DNA from: an uncultured Bacteroidales bacterium
GTDB lineage: Bacteria > Bacteroidota > Bacteroidia > Bacteroidales > Paludibacteraceae
Reading direction: 5' to 3'
Length of the DNA stretch: 56,151 nucleotides
Assembly (NCBI GenBank): GCA_902782665.1
Contig: CACZOA010000043.1
Location: 1 to 56,151 of the forward strand
Both the position numbers and the translations under genes were made by a program. The notes under the pieces were generated by a model, which saw nothing but the letters and a program-made list of their open reading frames with translations, was not told the DNA's origin and made no database searches. How positions within the stretch are numbered: the first letter of the stretch is position 1; each line of letters opens with the position of its first letter. Of the stretch, positions 2-54,298 are shown piece after piece.

Positions 2-442
2 ACTTGCGGTACAATCAATGTCACTGAGCACTTCAAGAATTGGGAGAAATTAGGTGTGAAGATGGGTGGAATCTACGACTGTAAGATCCTTTGTGAAGTA
101 GGTGGTGGTTCTGGTTCTATCGAATACACTTGCGCTAGTATGTCATGGAAGGGACAGAACAGTTCGCTTGGTGATTTGAGTTGCAGTGATCCAACTGATG
201 TCATTACTATAAACAATGAGTCAAAAGAATTTGCAATTGTGCCAAACCCAGCGTCTACTGAAATCTATATCATTAGCGATGGTGAGGTAGAAAATGTAAT
301 GATCTTCAACACTATTGGAGATGTTGTAGCAAGAGCCGACGAGTCTAGAGTAGACGTATCGTCTCTACCTACAGGAATTTACTTTGTGAAAGCAACTATC
401 GATGGAGAGTCGGTAGTCAAGAAATTGGTTGTGACAAAATAA
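2..442 (+). CDS. GH11 xylanase C-terminus with T9SS sorting domain (5' partial)
   Basis: The gene enters from the left edge; the frame is open from base 2, so the GTG at 56 is not a real start. The visible 146 residues hold the end of a GH11 xylanase domain, including the segment CEVGGGSGSIEYT whose Glu aligns with the GH11 acid/base. A short linker follows, then a ~70-residue type A T9SS C-terminal domain (PNPASTEIYI... to a Lys-rich end). Expected role: endo-xylanase exported through the outer membrane and anchored at the surface. Protein and DNA are almost identical to the end of the next gene, including the terminator, so the two are recent tandem duplicates. The number of upstream domains cannot be seen. 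Confidence 0.9.
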   Translation, partial: TCGTINVTEHFKNWEKLGVKMGGIYDCKILCEVGGGSGSIEYTCASMSWKGQNSSLGDLSCSDPTDVITINNESKEFAIVPNPASTEIYIISDGEVENVMIFNTIGDVVARADESRVDVSSLPTGIYFVKATIDGESVVKKLVVTK

Positions 443-467
443 GTGATAAAACCATTTCCTTAAAAGA

Positions 468-500
468 AAGAGCCGGAAGCAATGCTTTCGGCTCTTTTTT
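468..500 (+). terminator. Rho-independent terminator of the upstream xylanase gene
   Basis: An 11-bp stem (GAGCCGGAAGC / GCTTTCGGCTC, loop AAT) is followed by a T-run. The same hairpin recurs after the next gene. Confidence 0.85.
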
Positions 501-746: not shown

Positions 747-3700
747 ATGAAAAAACACATTATCACTACCTTGTTTACGACTGTAATCAGTTGTACAACA
801 GCATTCGCCCAAACGGATGGCGAAATTGGTGTCAACGGTGATGAAGGTGCATCATCTAGTTCTATTTTTAGTTATCCAAAGGAGGCTGACATAGATTATG
901 TGGGCGACGGTCTTATCGGCCACAAACTTGATATCTATTATCCTGACGATGGCAAGGAGACTCACAATGTGATCATCCATATATATGGAAGTGCCTGGAG
1001 AAGCGACAACAGTAAAGGTTCAGCAGATCTAGGAACAGTTGGACTGGCTGCATTAAAGGCCGGATATATATTCGTCACTCCAAACCATAGATCTCTCAAT
1101 GATGCGTTGTGGCCAGCCCAGATCAACGACATCAAAGCAGTTGTCCGCTATCTACGTGGAAACAAGGAGGCTCTTAAGATTGACGATTCTTTCATCGCCA
1201 TCTCCGGATACTCTTCAGGAGGTCACTTGGCTTCTATGATGGGTGTCACTAACGACGAAAAAGTGGTGTATGTTGGCAAAGAGTCGATTAATATCGAAGG
1301 TACCCTTGGAAATTTCAGAAACGAAAGCAGTAGAGTCGACGCTGTATGCGACTGGTCAGGACCTGTCGACAGCAGAGACAAAACATGCGGAAATCCTATC
1401 AACATATCTCCAGAAAACGAGATACTAGGCGGTTGTACACCTGAGGAGTGTCCTGACCAACACGCATCTCTCGCTGCCACCACATATCTTGATGCCAAAG
1501 ATGTGCCTCACATGATCTGTCATGGCACAAACGACAACATCGTTCCCGTCTGCGAGGCAGAGAAATATAGGGACAACCTTATAAAAGCAGGCGTCTATGT
1601 TGAGTGGTACAACTCAGATTATGGTCACGAGGTGATCGAAGACTACACAGACGAGATGATCAGTTTCTTCAACAAAGTCCGTTCAGGAGAGGTTGAACAA
1701 GGTAGCGAAGGAGAAGGTTCTTCTTCAGACTGTTTCGATCCATGTTCATACACAACAGCTTATTCTGACGGATCTATCATCGCAGACAACGCTGTAAAGG
1801 ATCTTGAAAATGGCTATAATGTAGAATTGTGGAGAGAGACATATACAGGTAGCATGACTGTGTTCGGAGGCAAAGCTGACTGTGCTTTCAAGGCAAGTTG
1901 GGACAACTCAGGAGACTTTTTGGCCCGTGTAGGTTATTACGATGGAAAGGCATCAAAGGAATATACTGATTTAGGTGAGATCTATGCCGTCTACAACTAT
2001 TCTAAGAAAGGAGACGGTGGAGGAAAATATTCTTACATCGGTGTTTACGGCTGGACCCAGAATCCAACAATCGAATACTATATTGTGGACGATTCCTTCA
2101 CACCTGATGGAGATGGCATGTTCTGGGATACAGAGACTAAAGGAACATACAAAGTTGACGGTGTAGAATATACATTGAAGGTAGGAATAAGAAACAATTA
2201 CCCATCCATTCTTGGAAACACAAGTTTCAAACAAGTGTTCGCTGTCCGCTCCTCATATCAGACTTGCGGTTCTATCAACGTGACTGAGCATTTCAAGAAT
2301 TGGGAAAAGCTCGGCATCAAGATGGGCAACATCTACGACTGTAAGATACATTGTGAAGTTGGCGGAGGCACTGGATCTATCGAATACACTTGTGCGAGTA
2401 TGTCTTGGAAGGGTCAGAATAGCTCTTTCGGCAAACTGAATTGTAACAGCAGTGAGGAGCCAGGCATCGATGACCCAGGTGTAGAAGAGCCAGGCATTGA
2501 GGTCCCTATTATTGAGGAACCTGGTATAGAAGAGCCAGGCACTCCTTCTGATTGCGTCGAGCCAAGCACATACACGACAAAATATTCTGGCGGAACGACC
2601 ATCACTAGCAACGGTCTTAGAGATATTGGCAATGGTTATAATGTTGAATTCTGGCATGAAATAAATAAGGGAGGCATGACTGTGTTCGGAGACGGTGCCG
2701 ACTGTGCTTTCAAAGCTAATTGGGAGAATTCCGGCGACTTCTTGGTTCAAGTAGGTTACTATGATGGATCAGCCACTAAGGAATACACTGATTTAGGCGA
2801 AATCCATGCCGTCTACAACTACTCTAAGACAGGCACAGGCGGTGGAACCTATTCTTATATCGGCATTTATGGATGGACTAAGAATCCTTTGATTGAATAC
2901 TATATTGTGGACGACACTTTCACTCCTGACAGCGACAAATTGTTCTATGGCACGGAAGAAATAGGAACATACACAGTTGATGGAGTAATGTACACATTGA
3001 GAGTAGGCTCAAGGGTCAATGCTCCATGTATTGAAGGAACCGCCAATTTCAAACAGATATTTGCTGTCCGCTCTTCTTATCAGACTTGCGGAAAGATCAA
3101 CGTGAGTGAGCATTTCATGAATTGGGAAAAGCTCGGTGTCAAGATGGGAGGCCTCTACTCATGTAAATTCCTATGTGAAGTAGGTGGAGGTACTGGTTCG
3201 ATCGAATACACTTGCGCTAGTATGTCTTGGAAGGGTCACAACAGTTCACTCGGCGAGTTGGATTGTAGCAGCAGTGAGGAGCCAGATATAGTACCTTCTG
3301 ATTGCGTCGACCCAAGCACATACACGACAAAATATTCTGGCGGAACGACCATCACTAGCAACTGTATACGTACTATCGGAAACGGTTACGTCGTTGAAAC
3401 GTGGAGTGAAGTAAATAATGGAAGCGTGACAGTATTCGGAGACAAAGCAGACTGTGCTTTCAAAGCTAATTGGGATAATTCTGGAGACTTCTTGGTTCAA
3501 GTTGGCTACTATGACGGACCAGCCACTAAGAAATACACTGACTTAGGTGAAATATATGCCGTCTACAACTACTCTAAGGCTGGCAATGGTGGAGGAACTT
3601 ATTCTTACATCGGCGTCTACGGATGGACAAAGAATCCTTTGATTGAGTATTATATTGTAGACGACTCTTTCACTCCTGACGGAAGTGGCATGTTCTATGG

Positions 3701-5051
3701 CGCAGAAGAAATAGGAACATACACGGTTGATGGAGTAAAGTATACATTGATGGAAGGTCAAAGAATCGCTGCTCCTTGTATTATAGGATCTGCTGATTTC
3801 AAACAGATATTTGCTGTTCGATCTTCTTATCAGACTTGCGGAAAGATTAACGTGACTGAGCATTTCATGAATTGGGAAAAACTCGGTGTCAAGTTGGGAG
3901 GTCTATACTCATGTAAAATCCAATGTGAAGTGGGTGGAGGTACAGGATCTATCGAATATACTTGCGCAAGTATGTCTTGGGATGGACAGAACAGTTCACT
4001 TGGAATATTGAATTGTAGCAGTGCCGTCGAGGAAGAAGAAGAGGAAGAGGCAGAAAGCGATTCCATTAACATCAACCCATGCTCATACACAACAAATTAT
4101 TCTGGCGGAACGGCCATCACTAGCAACTGTCTGAAGGATGTTGGCAATGGTTACCACGCAGAGATGTGGGGAGAAAGAAACAATGGAAGCATGACACTGT
4201 TCGGAGGAGAAGCAGGTTGTGCATTCAAGGCTAATTGGGACGACACAGGTGACTTCTTGGCTCGCGTAGGTTATTACGACGCGAAGGCATCCAAGAAATA
4301 TACAGATTTAGGTGAGATATACGCCATCTACAACTACATTAAGAGTGGCGACGGTGGAGGAAGTTATTCATACATCGGCGTCTACGGATGGACCAAGAAT
4401 CCTATGATTGAGTACTATATTGTGGACGATACTTTCACTCCTGACAGTGAAGATTTGTTCTGGGGTGCCAATAAAATAGGAACATACAAAGTTGATGGTG
4501 TGGAATATACATTGATGGTAGGACAAAGAATCAACGCTCCTTGTATCGAAGGATCCGCTAGTTTCAAACAGATCTTCGCAGTACGTTCTTCTTATCAGAC
4601 ATGTGGCATAATCAACGTGAGTGAACACTTCAGAAATTGGGAAGAGCTCGGTGTCAAGATGGGTTACATCTACGACTGCAAACTACTATGTGAAGTAGGA
4701 GGAGGCACAGGATCTATCGAATACACTTGTGCTAGTATGTCTTGGAAAGGAAAGAAATTCACGCTTGGCAGTTTGAGAGACGGAGAAGGAGACGACACTC
4801 AAATAACAAGTGCAGCTACATACAGCGACACGAAGGAATTCACAATTATGCCAAACCCAGCGTCTACAGAAATCTATATCATCAGCGAAGGTGAGGTAGA
4901 GAATGTAATGATCTTCAACGCTATTGGAGATGAGGTAGCAAGAGCCGACGAATCTAAAGTAGACGTATCGTCACTACCTACAGGCATCTACTTTGTGAAA
5001 GCAACTATCGATGGAGAGTCGGTTGTGAAGAAATTGGTTGTGACAAAATAA
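747..5051 (+). CDS. Multidomain xylan-degrading enzyme: esterase + four GH11 xylanase domains + T9SS sorting domain
   Basis: The protein has 1434 residues. A signal peptide (about 1-21) precedes an alpha/beta-hydrolase esterase (about 45-315) with nucleophile motif GYSSGGH, Asp in HGTNDN and a C-terminal GHE; it resembles the BD-FAE acetyl-xylan/feruloyl esterase group. Four GH11 domains follow, starting near 327, 601, 851 and 1112. Each keeps the YGWT-x-NP-x-IEYYIV segment with the nucleophile Glu (443, 717, 967, 1222) and the CEVGGG acid/base Glu (for example 537 and 1316). Linkers are acidic: EEPGI-type repeats (about 570-600) and a poly-Glu run before domain 4. Residues ~1362-1434 are a type A T9SS tail. 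Expected role: secreted cleavage and de-esterification of xylan. Bacterial GH11 enzymes normally carry one or two catalytic domains, so four is unusual. Confidence 0.93.
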   Translation: MKKHIITTLFTTVISCTTAFAQTDGEIGVNGDEGASSSSIFSYPKEADIDYVGDGLIGHKLDIYYPDDGKETHNVIIHIYGSAWRSDNSKGSADLGTVGLAALKAGYIFVTPNHRSLNDALWPAQINDIKAVVRYLRGNKEALKIDDSFIAISGYSSGGHLASMMGVTNDEKVVYVGKESINIEGTLGNFRNESSRVDAVCDWSGPVDSRDKTCGNPINISPENEILGGCTPEECPDQHASLAATTYLDAKDVPHMICHGTNDNIVPVCEAEKYRDNLIKAGVYVEWYNSDYGHEVIEDYTDEMISFFNKVRSGEVEQGSEGEGSSSDCFDPCSYTTAYSDGSIIADNAVKDLENGYNVELWRETYTGSMTVFGGKADCAFKASWDNSGDFLARVGYYDGKASKEYTDLGEIYAVYNYSKKGDGGGKYSYIGVYGWTQNPTIEYYIVDDSFTPDGDGMFWDTETKGTYKVDGVEYTLKVGIRNNYPSILGNTSFKQVFAVRSSYQTCGSINVTEHFKNWEKLGIKMGNIYDCKIHCEVGGGTGSIEYTCASMSWKGQNSSFGKLNCNSSEEPGIDDPGVEEPGIEVPIIEEPGIEEPGTPSDCVEPSTYTTKYSGGTTITSNGLRDIGNGYNVEFWHEINKGGMTVFGDGADCAFKANWENSGDFLVQVGYYDGSATKEYTDLGEIHAVYNYSKTGTGGGTYSYIGIYGWTKNPLIEYYIVDDTFTPDSDKLFYGTEEIGTYTVDGVMYTLRVGSRVNAPCIEGTANFKQIFAVRSSYQTCGKINVSEHFMNWEKLGVKMGGLYSCKFLCEVGGGTGSIEYTCASMSWKGHNSSLGELDCSSSEEPDIVPSDCVDPSTYTTKYSGGTTITSNCIRTIGNGYVVETWSEVNNGSVTVFGDKADCAFKANWDNSGDFLVQVGYYDGPATKKYTDLGEIYAVYNYSKAGNGGGTYSYIGVYGWTKNPLIEYYIVDDSFTPDGSGMFYGAEEIGTYTVDGVKYTLMEGQRIAAPCIIGSADFKQIFAVRSSYQTCGKINVTEHFMNWEKLGVKLGGLYSCKIQCEVGGGTGSIEYTCASMSWDGQNSSLGILNCSSAVEEEEEEEAESDSININPCSYTTNYSGGTAITSNCLKDVGNGYHAEMWGERNNGSMTLFGGEAGCAFKANWDDTGDFLARVGYYDAKASKKYTDLGEIYAIYNYIKSGDGGGSYSYIGVYGWTKNPMIEYYIVDDTFTPDSEDLFWGANKIGTYKVDGVEYTLMVGQRINAPCIEGSASFKQIFAVRSSYQTCGIINVSEHFRNWEELGVKMGYIYDCKLLCEVGGGTGSIEYTCASMSWKGKKFTLGSLRDGEGDDTQITSAATYSDTKEFTIMPNPASTEIYIISEGEVENVMIFNAIGDEVARADESKVDVSSLPTGIYFVKATIDGESVVKKLVVTK

Positions 5052-5081
5052 GTGATAAAATTCATTCATTTTCCTAAAGGA

Positions 5082-5117
5082 AAGAGCCGGAAGCAATGCT
5101 TTCGGCTCTTTTTTTTT
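5082..5117 (+). terminator. Rho-independent terminator of the multidomain xylanase
   Basis: It has the same GAGCCGGAAGC/GCTTTCGGCTC stem and AAT loop as the hairpin at 468-500, followed by nine Ts. It belongs to the duplicated 3' segment. Confidence 0.87.
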
Positions 5118-5160: not shown

Positions 5161-6690
5161 ATGGAAATGGGAAAAATCGACTATATCTCTTTAAATGACA
5201 TTGAGAATATCCTCTACAAAGGTGAGCAACTTTCGTTCGCTTCCAACGTATGGGACAGAATAAACAGAAGCCACGACTTCTTGAAATCTTTCTCCGTAGA
5301 CAGAATCATATACGGAATAAACACTGGTTTCGGTCCTATGGCCCAATGGCGTATCTCAGACGAAGACCGTGAGGCTCTACAATACAACATCATCCGCAGC
5401 CACTCAACTGGTGCAGGTGAACCTTTGCCTGACGTCTATGTGAAAGCTGCCATGATCGCTCGCGTCGGCACATTCACACAGGGAAAGAGCGGAATTCACA
5501 AGAGTATTGTCGAACTTCTTATCAATTTCATCAACAAAGGCATCACACCATTCATTCCTGAACACGGAAGTGTAGGAGCCAGCGGTGACCTTGTTCAGCT
5601 CGCTCATCTTGCCCTCACAATGATTGGAGAAGGTGAGGTGTTCTACAAAGGAGAGAAACGTCCCGCAGGCGAAGTCATGAAAGAGTGCGGACTTGAGCCT
5701 ATCAAGATGTTTATACGTGAAGGATTGTCGCTTACAAACGGCACTTCATTCATGACAGGTATCGGCTTAGTCAACCTTATAAACGCAAAAAAACTTCTAC
5801 GTTTCGCCACAATCGCAAGCGTGATGATGAATGAGATCGCAAGTTCTTACGACGATTTCATGTCGGAGCCGATAAATGCAGTCCGTCGTCAACGTGGACA
5901 AGGCATCATCGCTGAGCAGATGCGTGAGATCGCGAAAGGAAGCAAATGTATGCTCGACAGAAAAAGCGAGATGTACGACAAGAAACACACAGAAAATGTG
6001 TTCACCCATAAAGTGCAGCCTTACTATTCGCTAAGATGCATTCCGCAGATTCTTGGACCTGTATTGGAGACGGTGGAGAATGTGGAGAGAGTGCTTATCA
6101 ACGAAGTCAACTCTGCTTGCGACAACCCAATCGTCGACCCAGAGACTGAAGAGGTTTACCACGGTGGTAATTTCCATGGCGACTATGTATCTTTCGAGAT
6201 GGACAAACTAAAAATCGCCGTCACAAAGATGACGATGCTGTGCGAGCGTCAGATGAACTACCTGTTCCACGACAGAATCAACGGCATTCTTCCTCCATTC
6301 GTGAATCTTGGCAAACTTGGTTTGAACTATGGTCTGCAGGCATCTCAGTTTACAGCCTGCTCTACTACAGCAGAATGTCAGACACTATCCAACCCAATGT
6401 ACGTGCATTCGATTCCTAACAACAATGATAATCAAGATATTGTGTCGATGGGAACGAATTCAGCTTTGATTGCAAGACGAGTGATAGACAACTCATTCCA
6501 AGTGATCGCGATCCACTTCATGGCAATCGTGCAAGCTGTGGATGCACTCGGATACGCAGACAAGTTGTCGCCGCTGACAAACCGCGTCTACAAAGACATC
6601 AGAGCCTTTTTCCCACGCTTCGAGGACGACACTCCTAAATATAAAGATATTGAAAAGATGATAATTTTCTTGAAAGAGCAAAGTTATTAA
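5161..6690 (+). CDS. Aromatic amino-acid ammonia-lyase, tyrosine-ammonia-lyase-like (HAL/PAL/TAL family)
   Basis: The 509-residue length is typical of the MIO-dependent lyase family. The MIO cofactor is formed from Ala140-Ser141-Gly142 in GSVGASGDL. The N-terminal YGINTGFGPMAQ loop and the C-terminal SIPNNNDNQDIVSMG segment are conserved. From memory the whole chain follows the flexirubin-associated tyrosine ammonia-lyases of Bacteroidetes (Flavobacterium type). The segment that in HutH reads SENKxLxHPAS here reads AECQTLSNP, arguing against histidine degradation. No hut genes and no aryl-polyene or flexirubin genes lie nearby, so it is an orphan with its own promoter. Likely reaction: tyrosine to p-coumarate plus ammonia; His or Phe as substrate cannot be excluded. 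Confidence 0.85.
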   Translation: MEMGKIDYISLNDIENILYKGEQLSFASNVWDRINRSHDFLKSFSVDRIIYGINTGFGPMAQWRISDEDREALQYNIIRSHSTGAGEPLPDVYVKAAMIARVGTFTQGKSGIHKSIVELLINFINKGITPFIPEHGSVGASGDLVQLAHLALTMIGEGEVFYKGEKRPAGEVMKECGLEPIKMFIREGLSLTNGTSFMTGIGLVNLINAKKLLRFATIASVMMNEIASSYDDFMSEPINAVRRQRGQGIIAEQMREIAKGSKCMLDRKSEMYDKKHTENVFTHKVQPYYSLRCIPQILGPVLETVENVERVLINEVNSACDNPIVDPETEEVYHGGNFHGDYVSFEMDKLKIAVTKMTMLCERQMNYLFHDRINGILPPFVNLGKLGLNYGLQASQFTACSTTAECQTLSNPMYVHSIPNNNDNQDIVSMGTNSALIARRVIDNSFQVIAIHFMAIVQAVDALGYADKLSPLTNRVYKDIRAFFPRFEDDTPKYKDIEKMIIFLKEQSY

Positions 6691-52528: not shown

Positions 52529-54298
52529 TTACTCTTTAATCAACTTGAATGTCTTCTGACCTCCGTCAAAGTTCACCTTCAACACATAGATTCCACGTGG
52601 CAATGAAGATGTGTAAATCACAGTTGGAGTGAAACCGATCATGCTTTCAGCAGCGACTGTCTGACCGTTGATGTTGACAATGCTGATCTCTGCTCTACCG
52701 TCGTATCCGATCTCTACAGGATCAACGATAACATAATCATCAAATACAGTTGGGTAAACATTGAAATTTGTATTTCTTACCTCTGCGACACCACTCATAT
52801 TCGGATCCAGTTTTTCTACTATACTTGCGATCGCCATGATAAATGGAGCGTTATAGTCACATCCACCTTCAGTCTCTGTATATGAAGCACCACCCTCTAC
52901 AACATTTTCAAATATTCCTGTACCAGAAGGTCCTCCAATCACACCACCACTAGCGAACATATAATCACATGTATTCTTTATGTTTGAAGGCGGATTGTCA
53001 TTTCTTCCCATCGCATTTCTATGATGTATACGGAAATGCATATCTCCCTTGAATCCATGCAAGAAAGTGTGGTTGAACTCGTTCTTTCCTAACACATAGT
53101 CAACAATACGATCACGGAATCCTTTTGCCTCATCAACATTCTGAGAAGATGTGATCACCCCGTCTTCTACAAGTTTAACATACAAAGCGGCAGCTGTAGC
53201 TCCACCTAGGGCCAACTTGTTTGTTCCCCATCGGCTTGAATAGTAAGGGAATCCATTCGGATCACTTTTAGCCTTGTCCAAATGTAAACCATATACATTC
53301 TTCTCAAGGAAACTTACATAAGTTCCACCGGCTCCATTATTCAAACTTTTGTCTATTCTTGCAAGATAATAATAAACGAAGTCTGTCATAGTATCCCATG
53401 CAAGAGGTGAGTTAGACTCCCATTTTCCAGCAAGATAAGATTTAGCGTCCGCCAAATAACTATCCTCACCTGTCAAATTATAAAGCATGACAGCTGCAAG
53501 CGACAACTCGTCAGTCCACTCTGTGTTGGGAGATCCATAAAACTCAGGAATTGGAGCCTGTGCGTCTTTATTTTTCTTAGCGAACACATATCCATCAATA
53601 GCCGCTTTCTTACACTTAGCCGCATAATCAGCATCAGGATAATGTTTAGCCATCAGACAAAGAGCTGAAACATAGTTTGCAGCCTGAGGTCCTCCTATAG
53701 ATGAAGATGTCCAAACAGGACGTGGATCACCACCATTATCAACAGATTGCTCACTCTGCTTTGACGAAGTCATCCATACCCTGTGGTCACTGGCATCACC
53801 AACATAATAGCAGAACTCACCGTTTGGCAAGAAACACTTCATGAAATAGTCAGTCGCTATCTTTGCCTCGTCCAATACATCAGGAATACCATTCTTCGGA
53901 CCATATTCAGCATCATAATTATCCTGGAACGCTTTTGGCCAAATATCATATGCTGCAAGCAAAGAGAATGCTGCATATCCCATTGTTGTACCAACCTTGA
54001 TATGGTCACCACAGTCGTGCCATCCTCCTGTAAGATCGTAACTGCCATTGCCACCGCCATTCACTTTTCCTTGTCCATCTTTGACATGACAATACTTCTT
54101 TGATACGCTCGAATTATCATGAAGCATCCAGTTATGTGTGTCACCACAACGCTGACCGCCATAAAACTTCAAGCCCATGTTGATAGCCTCTCTATAATCC
54201 GTTGCTTGATATCCGTAAGAATATGATGAAAAGCCGTCGAAAGCAAACGATGTTGCCGACAATGCCGATAGAAGCGAAATTGAAATAAGTTTCTTCAT
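52529..54298 (-). CDS. GH9 endoglucanase (cellulase) with T9SS sorting domain
   Basis: The protein has about 589 residues (ATG at 54298; an ATG two codons upstream is also possible), with signal peptide MKKLISISLLSALSATSFA. The GH9 (alpha/alpha)6 catalytic domain (about 25-500) has GGWHDCGDHIKVG (catalytic base Asp region), YGPKNGIPDVLDEAK, HFRIHHRNAMG, and the catalytic acid Glu in ETEGGCDYNAPFI. There is no N-terminal Ig-like or CBM module. A T9SS C-terminal domain (about 515-589: NVYPTVFDDYVIV to KTFKLIKE) directs surface export. It hydrolyses beta-1,4-glucan. It starts 50 bases behind tRNA-Arg on the same strand, with no recognisable promoter between them. Confidence 0.95.
   Translation of the reverse strand: MKKLISISLLSALSATSFAFDGFSSYSYGYQATDYREAINMGLKFYGGQRCGDTHNWMLHDNSSVSKKYCHVKDGQGKVNGGGNGSYDLTGGWHDCGDHIKVGTTMGYAAFSLLAAYDIWPKAFQDNYDAEYGPKNGIPDVLDEAKIATDYFMKCFLPNGEFCYYVGDASDHRVWMTSSKQSEQSVDNGGDPRPVWTSSSIGGPQAANYVSALCLMAKHYPDADYAAKCKKAAIDGYVFAKKNKDAQAPIPEFYGSPNTEWTDELSLAAVMLYNLTGEDSYLADAKSYLAGKWESNSPLAWDTMTDFVYYYLARIDKSLNNGAGGTYVSFLEKNVYGLHLDKAKSDPNGFPYYSSRWGTNKLALGGATAAALYVKLVEDGVITSSQNVDEAKGFRDRIVDYVLGKNEFNHTFLHGFKGDMHFRIHHRNAMGRNDNPPSNIKNTCDYMFASGGVIGGPSGTGIFENVVEGGASYTETEGGCDYNAPFIMAIASIVEKLDPNMSGVAEVRNTNFNVYPTVFDDYVIVDPVEIGYDGRAEISIVNINGQTVAAESMIGFTPTVIYTSSLPRGIYVLKVNFDGGQKTFKLIKE

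Follow-up and report, generated by a model that had tools for sequence, protein, structure and literature searches.

A BD-FAE-type esterase joined to four GH11 xylanase units and a type IX secretion tail in a gut-lineage member of the Paludibacteraceae

Domain architecture of the four-unit xylanase

A stretch of 56,151 nucleotides from an uncultured Bacteroidales bacterium of the family Paludibacteraceae (contig CACZOA010000043.1 of assembly GCA_902782665.1; hereafter, the window) carries on its forward strand, at 747..5051, an open reading frame (ORF) that begins with ATG and encodes a protein of 1434 amino acids. The protein joins a BD-FAE esterase domain to four glycoside hydrolase family 11 (GH11) units, here called U1 to U4, and to a C-terminal sorting domain of the type IX secretion system (T9SS). 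Judged from its sequence, it is probably a T9SS-exported, multi-site xylan-degrading enzyme in which one esterase and four tethered, nonprocessive GH11 units share a single chain. It is of a known kind, the multicatalytic, T9SS-tailed gut enzymes with tandemly repeated glycoside hydrolase (GH) domains. What appears to be new is the BD-FAE-GH11x4-T9SS architecture, together with fixed differences between the units and signs that unit-sized tracts have been exchanged between species.

The domain searches bore out the architecture proposed in an initial annotation, which had been made from the letters alone. In the Pfam search of the ORF, PF20434 (BD-FAE) matched amino acids 61 to 277 with 189.1 bits (cut-off, 26.8), PF00457 (GH11) matched four stretches with a total of 432.3 bits (cut-off, 27), and PF18962 (T9SS tail) matched amino acids 1367 to 1432 with 43.8 bits (cut-off, 27); TIGR04183 also matched the C terminus, with 39.0 bits (cut-off, 23). 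Each GH11 unit taken alone scored 115.1 to 122.5 bits in the whole-genome GH11 search, above the cut-off of 27, and was free of stops. The esterase domain lies at 927..1577, and the GH11 units follow at 1809..2384 (U1, amino acids 355 to 546, thumb motif YPSILG), 2631..3206 (U2, 629 to 820, APCIEG), 3381..3956 (U3, 879 to 1070, APCIIG), and 4146..4721 (U4, 1134 to 1325, APCIEG), with the sorting domain at 4845..5048 (1367 to 1434), all on the forward strand. Compared pairwise, the units are 74 to 82% identical in amino acids and 74 to 84% in DNA. With the unit ends chosen for alignment, the linkers between them measure 33, 7, and 13 amino acids, and the first of these, made of Glu/Pro-rich repeats, is placed by the same choice at 2445..2543. 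No carbohydrate-binding module (CBM) was among the Pfam matches to the ORF up to an E value of 1.

The first 21 codons (747..809, forward strand) encode a likely signal peptide, MKKHIITTLFTTVISCTTAFA, followed by Q; the cleavage site was placed by eye, and the N termini of relatives are similar. A lipobox-like VISC, likewise noted by eye, precedes the AFA-Q site, and the N terminus may carry a lipoprotein signal. An assembly artefact is an unlikely source of the repeats, because U1 to U4 differ by 16 to 26% in DNA and the same four-unit gene is found in two further genomes of the genus.

Catalytic residues, fold, and cysteines

To assign the catalytic glutamates, U3 and U4 were aligned to solved GH11 chains and the four units to each other. 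The nucleophiles are Glu443, Glu717, Glu967, and Glu1222, and the acid/base residues are Glu537, Glu811, Glu1061, and Glu1316, from U1 to U4. Against the solved chains, the nucleophile of U3 and U4 sits in EYYIV and the acid/base residue in CEVGGG, and the remaining two units align there without gaps. By our count the nucleophile of 3wp4 is chain residue 112, which agrees, shifted by three, with the E109 that the 3wp5 title names (E109A). Both glutamates were present in 28/28 aligned GH11 units, a selection out of 70, which upholds the earlier claim that all four units keep the pair and excludes units dead through loss of a catalytic Glu. The predicted model of U2 (pLDDT, 93.1; pTM, 0.92) found GH11 structures as its best matches (5gyf, E = 1.0e-22; 3wp5, E = 2.3e-21) and is assigned the GH11 fold.

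The initial annotation suggested a processive or avidity xylanase. The succession of sites along the chain would speak for processivity, which we nevertheless find extremely improbable. GH11 enzymes act as endo-enzymes with an open cleft, the best matches of the U2 model are ordinary GH11 structures, and the length of the U1-U2 linker varies between genomes; none of the results points to processivity, and the better fit is an endo-xylanase with several tethered sites.

The esterase domain matches the structures 6xyc and 6tkx (E of approximately 4e-57), and the alignment pairs its Ser156 with residue 128 of 6tkx and its Asp263 with residue 237. Both numbers are among those of the BD-FAE triad in PMC8165983, and from them 6tkx (and 6xyc) is probably BD-FAE itself. 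His294 (nucleotides 1626 to 1628) is a candidate third triad residue, assigned by its position beyond the stretch aligned to 6tkx. In the same source, BD-FAE takes off feruloyl and acetyl groups; it differs from the present protein in being described there as an enzyme encoded in a polysaccharide utilization locus, without GH11.

The cysteine pattern TCG..CEV..TCAS is present in U1 to U4, and its description as unusual for GH11 holds for some of the residues only. The TCG and CK cysteines, found in 28/28 aligned units, have counterparts among solved enzymes: the CK Cys is also in 5gv1, and the TCG Cys is matched by residue 175 (our own count) in the solved chain of CDBFV from Neocallimastix patriciarum (3wp4), a residue that we take to be the cysteine in the N-terminal disulfide of that enzyme. 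The excerpts of PMC5442702 describe a long N-terminal region of CDBFV held by a disulfide. CDBFV is thus a GH11 enzyme that shares the TCG Cys but is fungal, with a single unit in its solved chain. On the other hand, 5gv1 lacks counterparts of the cysteine directly preceding the acid/base Glu (26/28 units) and of the DCAF Cys (25/28), and no more than 16/28 units have the TCAS Cys.

Distribution among relatives

Within the family, 42/358 genomes had a GH11 match, and at least 7/358, all of the same genus as the window genome, had a frame with three or more GH11 units (three with four units and four with three); these counts are lower bounds, as many of the genomes are incomplete and those rich in GH11 had only part of their candidates scored. 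Four units with an esterase occur in the window genome and in the genomes G329 and G334, and three units with an esterase in G330 and G327. In G328 and G333, three units occur without an esterase, the G333 protein belonging to another lineage and carrying two CBM6. GH11 matches were found in 17/393 genomes of an order sample and 3/395 of a phylum sample, both of which contain the window's own genome, and neither listing showed another frame in which GH11 matched at least twice. The predicted rarity of three or more GH11 units is therefore borne out in these collections, which exclude anaerobic fungi; anaerobic fungi have multi-GH11 enzymes. In a scan of GTDB species genomes, the best 80 of 137 relatives were kept, amounting to 73 loci, and 6/73 held an ORF with three or more units (L058 to L062 and L095), probably the genes of the family scan.

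Record titles of the relatives name horse faeces for one multi-unit metagenome-assembled genome (MAG) and the guts of yak, goat, sheep, water buffalo, and horse for other Paludibacteraceae. Sister proteins carry a CBM between their domains, CBM6 in L038 (839 amino acids) and CBM35 in L039 (1113 amino acids). In a horse-faeces MAG, L043:3953-7561 encodes a protein that combines three GH11 units with two CBM6 and a T9SS tail; it is a separate three-unit protein, since its units fall in other GH11 lineages. Contigs ending within GH11 sequence were seen at window position 1 and in L040, L096, L097, and L098; the repeats seem to have broken assemblies, and unit counts from MAGs may be too low. Eight Fibrobacter loci among the 73 hold two-unit GH11 ORFs, and four Fibrobacter MAG loci (L103, L105, L106, and L108) have five consecutive single-GH11 ORFs each, another route to multiple GH11.

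Divergence of the unit positions

In a tree of 70 GH11 units, one clade (100/98) comprises the 21 units of six genes that have three or four closely related units. The U1 units of the window genome, G329, and G334 and the corresponding unit of G330 form a clade (100/98). U2, U3, and the middle units of the three-unit genes together make up a clade of nine rows (100/99), suggesting that the middle unit was probably duplicated, and the G330 middle unit groups with U3. An ancestor with three units, the middle one of which was doubled, is the simplest reading of these sequences.

Units at the same position are 88 to 98% identical among the three four-unit genes, versus 73 to 84% between positions within one protein. 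Moreover, 28/192 sites are fixed by position in 15 units (window genome, G329, G334, and G330), including the thumb sites 131, 133, 138, and 139, although common descent alone could yield part of these, and the near-identity of U2 across genomes has another cause, the tract treated below. The thumb reads ILG in U1, IIG in U3, and IEG in U2 and U4. The ratio of nonsynonymous to synonymous substitution rates (dN/dS) was low in the esterase and in three of the units: 0.047 (esterase), 0.045 (U1), 0.112 (U3), and 0.056 (U4) to G329, and 0.096, 0.143, 0.220, and 0.065, in the same order, to G334.

Several observations weigh against the reading as an esterase-bearing array of diverged, active units. 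In G327 and G328, the first unit clusters in the tree with last units, not with U1, and shares 89% (G327) and 84% (G328) identity with the last unit of the same protein, so the positions have not always been kept distinct. The thumb Pro, kept in the window U3, is replaced by Ala in the U3-type units of three relatives (G329, G334, and G330) and in the middle units of G327 and G328, and not all units of the relatives need therefore be equally active. For U2, dN/dS was 0.394 to G329 and 0.805 to G334, values that come from very few changes and leave the sign of selection unclear. Finally, the three-unit protein of G328 lacks the esterase.

These data bear on two alternatives. Under the first, the repeats serve dosage only: the copy number would rise and fall by repeat recombination, and four sites would mean more activity per chain with no division of labour. 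The presence of three or four units among close relatives is in line with this, as are the probable doubling of the middle unit and the likeness of first to last unit in G327 and G328, which looks like the trace of one overwriting the other. The closer identity at the same position than between positions speaks against it, as do the 28 position-fixed sites, with the share of common descent stated above, and we regard pure dosage as unlikely. Under the second, which we hold to be slightly less probable still, some units would mainly bind xylan with low activity, replacing the missing CBMs. Sister proteins do have CBMs where this protein has none listed, the thumbs of U1 and U3 depart from the IEG of U2 and U4, and the Pro replaced by Ala in the middle units of relatives is, according to the excerpts of PMC8199483, a strongly conserved residue that touches the substrate. 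Against this, every unit has both catalytic Glu, and the change from Pro to Ala is not confined to this gene group, being present also in three others of the 28 aligned units (L050, L054, and L057), so that it need not mean lost function.

Mosaic tracts between species

A 450-base tract within U2 (2697..3146, forward strand) is 99 to 100% identical in G329 and G334, versus 86 to 96% DNA identity in the esterase, U1, U3, U4, and tail. The synonymous rates (dS) follow the same pattern: to G334 they were 0.188 for the esterase, 0.132 for U1, 0.008 for U2, 0.265 for U3, and 0.204 for U4, and to G329 they were 0.260, 0.292, 0.068, 0.499, and 0.353, respectively. In 75-base steps across the tract there were 0 to 1 differences to either genome. 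Outside it, G329 had 19 differences in the step before and 4 and 15 in the two steps after. The flanking steps of G334 had only 0, 2, and 2, so the tract shared with this genome is longer. Other shared tracts join G329 and G330 in U1 (140 identical codons), the window gene and G330 in U4 and the tail, and the window gene and G334 also in U1 (80 identical codons).

When codons were shuffled, the observed longest identical run was reached in 0/2000 shuffles for each of six pairs, and the observed fewest differences per 120 codons in 0/2000 for five pairs and 2/2000 for G334-G330; the shuffle ignores uneven constraint along the gene and so supports recombination without proving it. Copying of the U2 tract from another locus was considered and rejected: once the U2 copies of the three genomes are set aside, matches in nine genomes of the genus, several of them incomplete (64 to 91% in five), did not exceed 86%. 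The best reading of these sequences is an exchange at this same locus, and between species, because the collection holds one genome per species. Errors in the MAGs are a possible source of the mosaic pattern.

Taken together with the divergence of the positions, these tracts may suggest that the array evolves by unit-sized swaps, with each position separately kept and functionally distinct while tracts of about one unit move between species at the locus. We put this forward tentatively, as a doubtful proposal, against which the likeness of the first to the last unit in the three-unit genes of G327 and G328 counts. If true, the array would be an exchangeable specificity set on one secreted chain, and a study case for the spread and divergence of enzyme repeats.

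Proposed function and relation to known enzymes

Export by the T9SS is likely, because the tail scores above the cut-off in both models, the host genome has a full-length SprA match (2111.1 bits; cut-off, 200), SprA being the sole T9SS component looked for, and there are 74 T9SS-tail matches in that genome, of which 69 are above the cut-off. The initial annotation was right on the T9SS tail. The protein would first be exported by Sec, and its C-terminal domain would then direct it through the outer membrane, to end up on the cell surface or in the medium. There, the esterase would remove acetyl and probably feruloyl groups from xylan, as its BD-FAE family suggests, and the four endo-acting GH11 units, on putatively flexible acidic linkers, would cleave the backbone. 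Being on one chain, the esterase and xylanase units may act on the same stretch of substrate. Several tethered sites may also concentrate the enzyme locally and make rebinding more likely, replacing the CBM6 or CBM35 of the sister proteins. Since the units have diverged in the thumb, they probably differ in their preference for decorated xylan. According to the abstract of PMC7110780, the addition of two Bacteroidetes CE6-CE1 carbohydrate esterases (CE) to a commercial xylanase improved its action, by a factor of nearly two on corn cob and of up to 20 on beechwood; those are two-domain esterases and not esterase-xylanase fusions as here.

The closest described proteins share parts of this architecture (papers cited from excerpts). 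XynC of Fibrobacter succinogenes (P35811, FSU_0777) has two GH11 domains and a proposed T9SS signal (PMC6851124). It resembles the window protein in both and differs in having two units, no listed esterase, and a host of another phylum; the comparison with XynC itself is by description only, and the Fibrobacter matches are 42 to 46% identical to U2. In Ruminococcus flavefaciens, a rumen bacterium, two GH11 domains are fused with an esterase in GH11-CBM22-GH10-Doc-GH11-CE4 (ORF03896) and GH11-CBM22-Doc-GH11-CE3 (PMC2721979) and in GH11-CBM22-Doc-GH11-CE1 (PMC2721979, PMC4081043). These fusions differ in bearing dockerins (that is, in being cellulosomal), in having two GH11 units in the entries listed, and in using CE1, CE3, or CE4 and not BD-FAE. 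"Candidatus Paraporphyromonas polyenzymogenes" and other "Candidatus MH11" members have T9SS enzymes such as GH8-CBM6-GH11 and ORFs of approximately 1900 amino acids with six consecutive GH5 domains (PMC5831590). Like the window protein, these enzymes of rumen Bacteroidales have a T9SS tail, but the tandem run is of GH5 and not GH11. A tetra-GH11 protein is not mentioned in the excerpts of that paper, whose supplements may hold such proteins.

The initial statement that bacterial GH11 proteins usually have one catalytic domain, or two as in XynC, was thus overstated, since the precedents in R. flavefaciens and the rumen Bacteroidales go further. That no tetra-GH11 esterase fusion has been described still agrees with the literature, as no tri- or tetra-GH11 protein appeared in the titles or abstract openings of open-access PMC articles, which is weak evidence; the architecture is, however, not restricted to the window genome, given the four-unit genes of G329 and G334 and the three-unit genes of G330 and G327. 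The protein is an unusual extension of the multi-part plant-digesting enzymes known from the rumen and shows how far a single catalytic domain can be repeated in those gut Bacteroidales enzymes that carry a T9SS tail. Proteins with one, two, three, and four GH11 units, alike in their type of esterase and tail, form a natural series in which the gain from added active sites is directly measurable.

Neighbouring features

Upstream, at 2..442 on the forward strand, lies the end of a paralogue, with the end of a GH11 unit and a T9SS tail, broken off by the contig end inside its last GH11 unit. This fragment is 95% identical (138/146 amino acids) to the end of the L039 protein, an esterase-GH11-CBM35-GH11-T9SS fusion. 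Terminator-like hairpins stand 3' of the paralogue (462..500; z, -6.77) and of the main gene (5076..5114; z, -6.55), both on the forward strand and neither in the consensus scan. Because the two genes end in nearly the same hairpin, the tandem duplication probably took in the 3' end too.

Plasmid or phage carriage was rejected, as five plasmid records gave distant matches only, all below 60% identity, and the phage search gave no match. Ten long T9SS-tailed frames of the genome were considered, and the six scanned, which did not include the four longest (L134, L137, L138, and L139) or other tails, held no repeated GH domain. Directly downstream of the main gene, window positions 5161 to 6690 encode FlxA, a flexirubin-type tyrosine ammonia-lyase (848 bits; cut-off, 700), and a GH9 protein with a T9SS tail is encoded on the same contig at 52529 to 54304. 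L135:410-3817 and L135:4041-8441 encode adjacent T9SS-tailed proteins of 1136 and 1467 amino acids, with hardly any other Pfam match at an E value of 1e-4.

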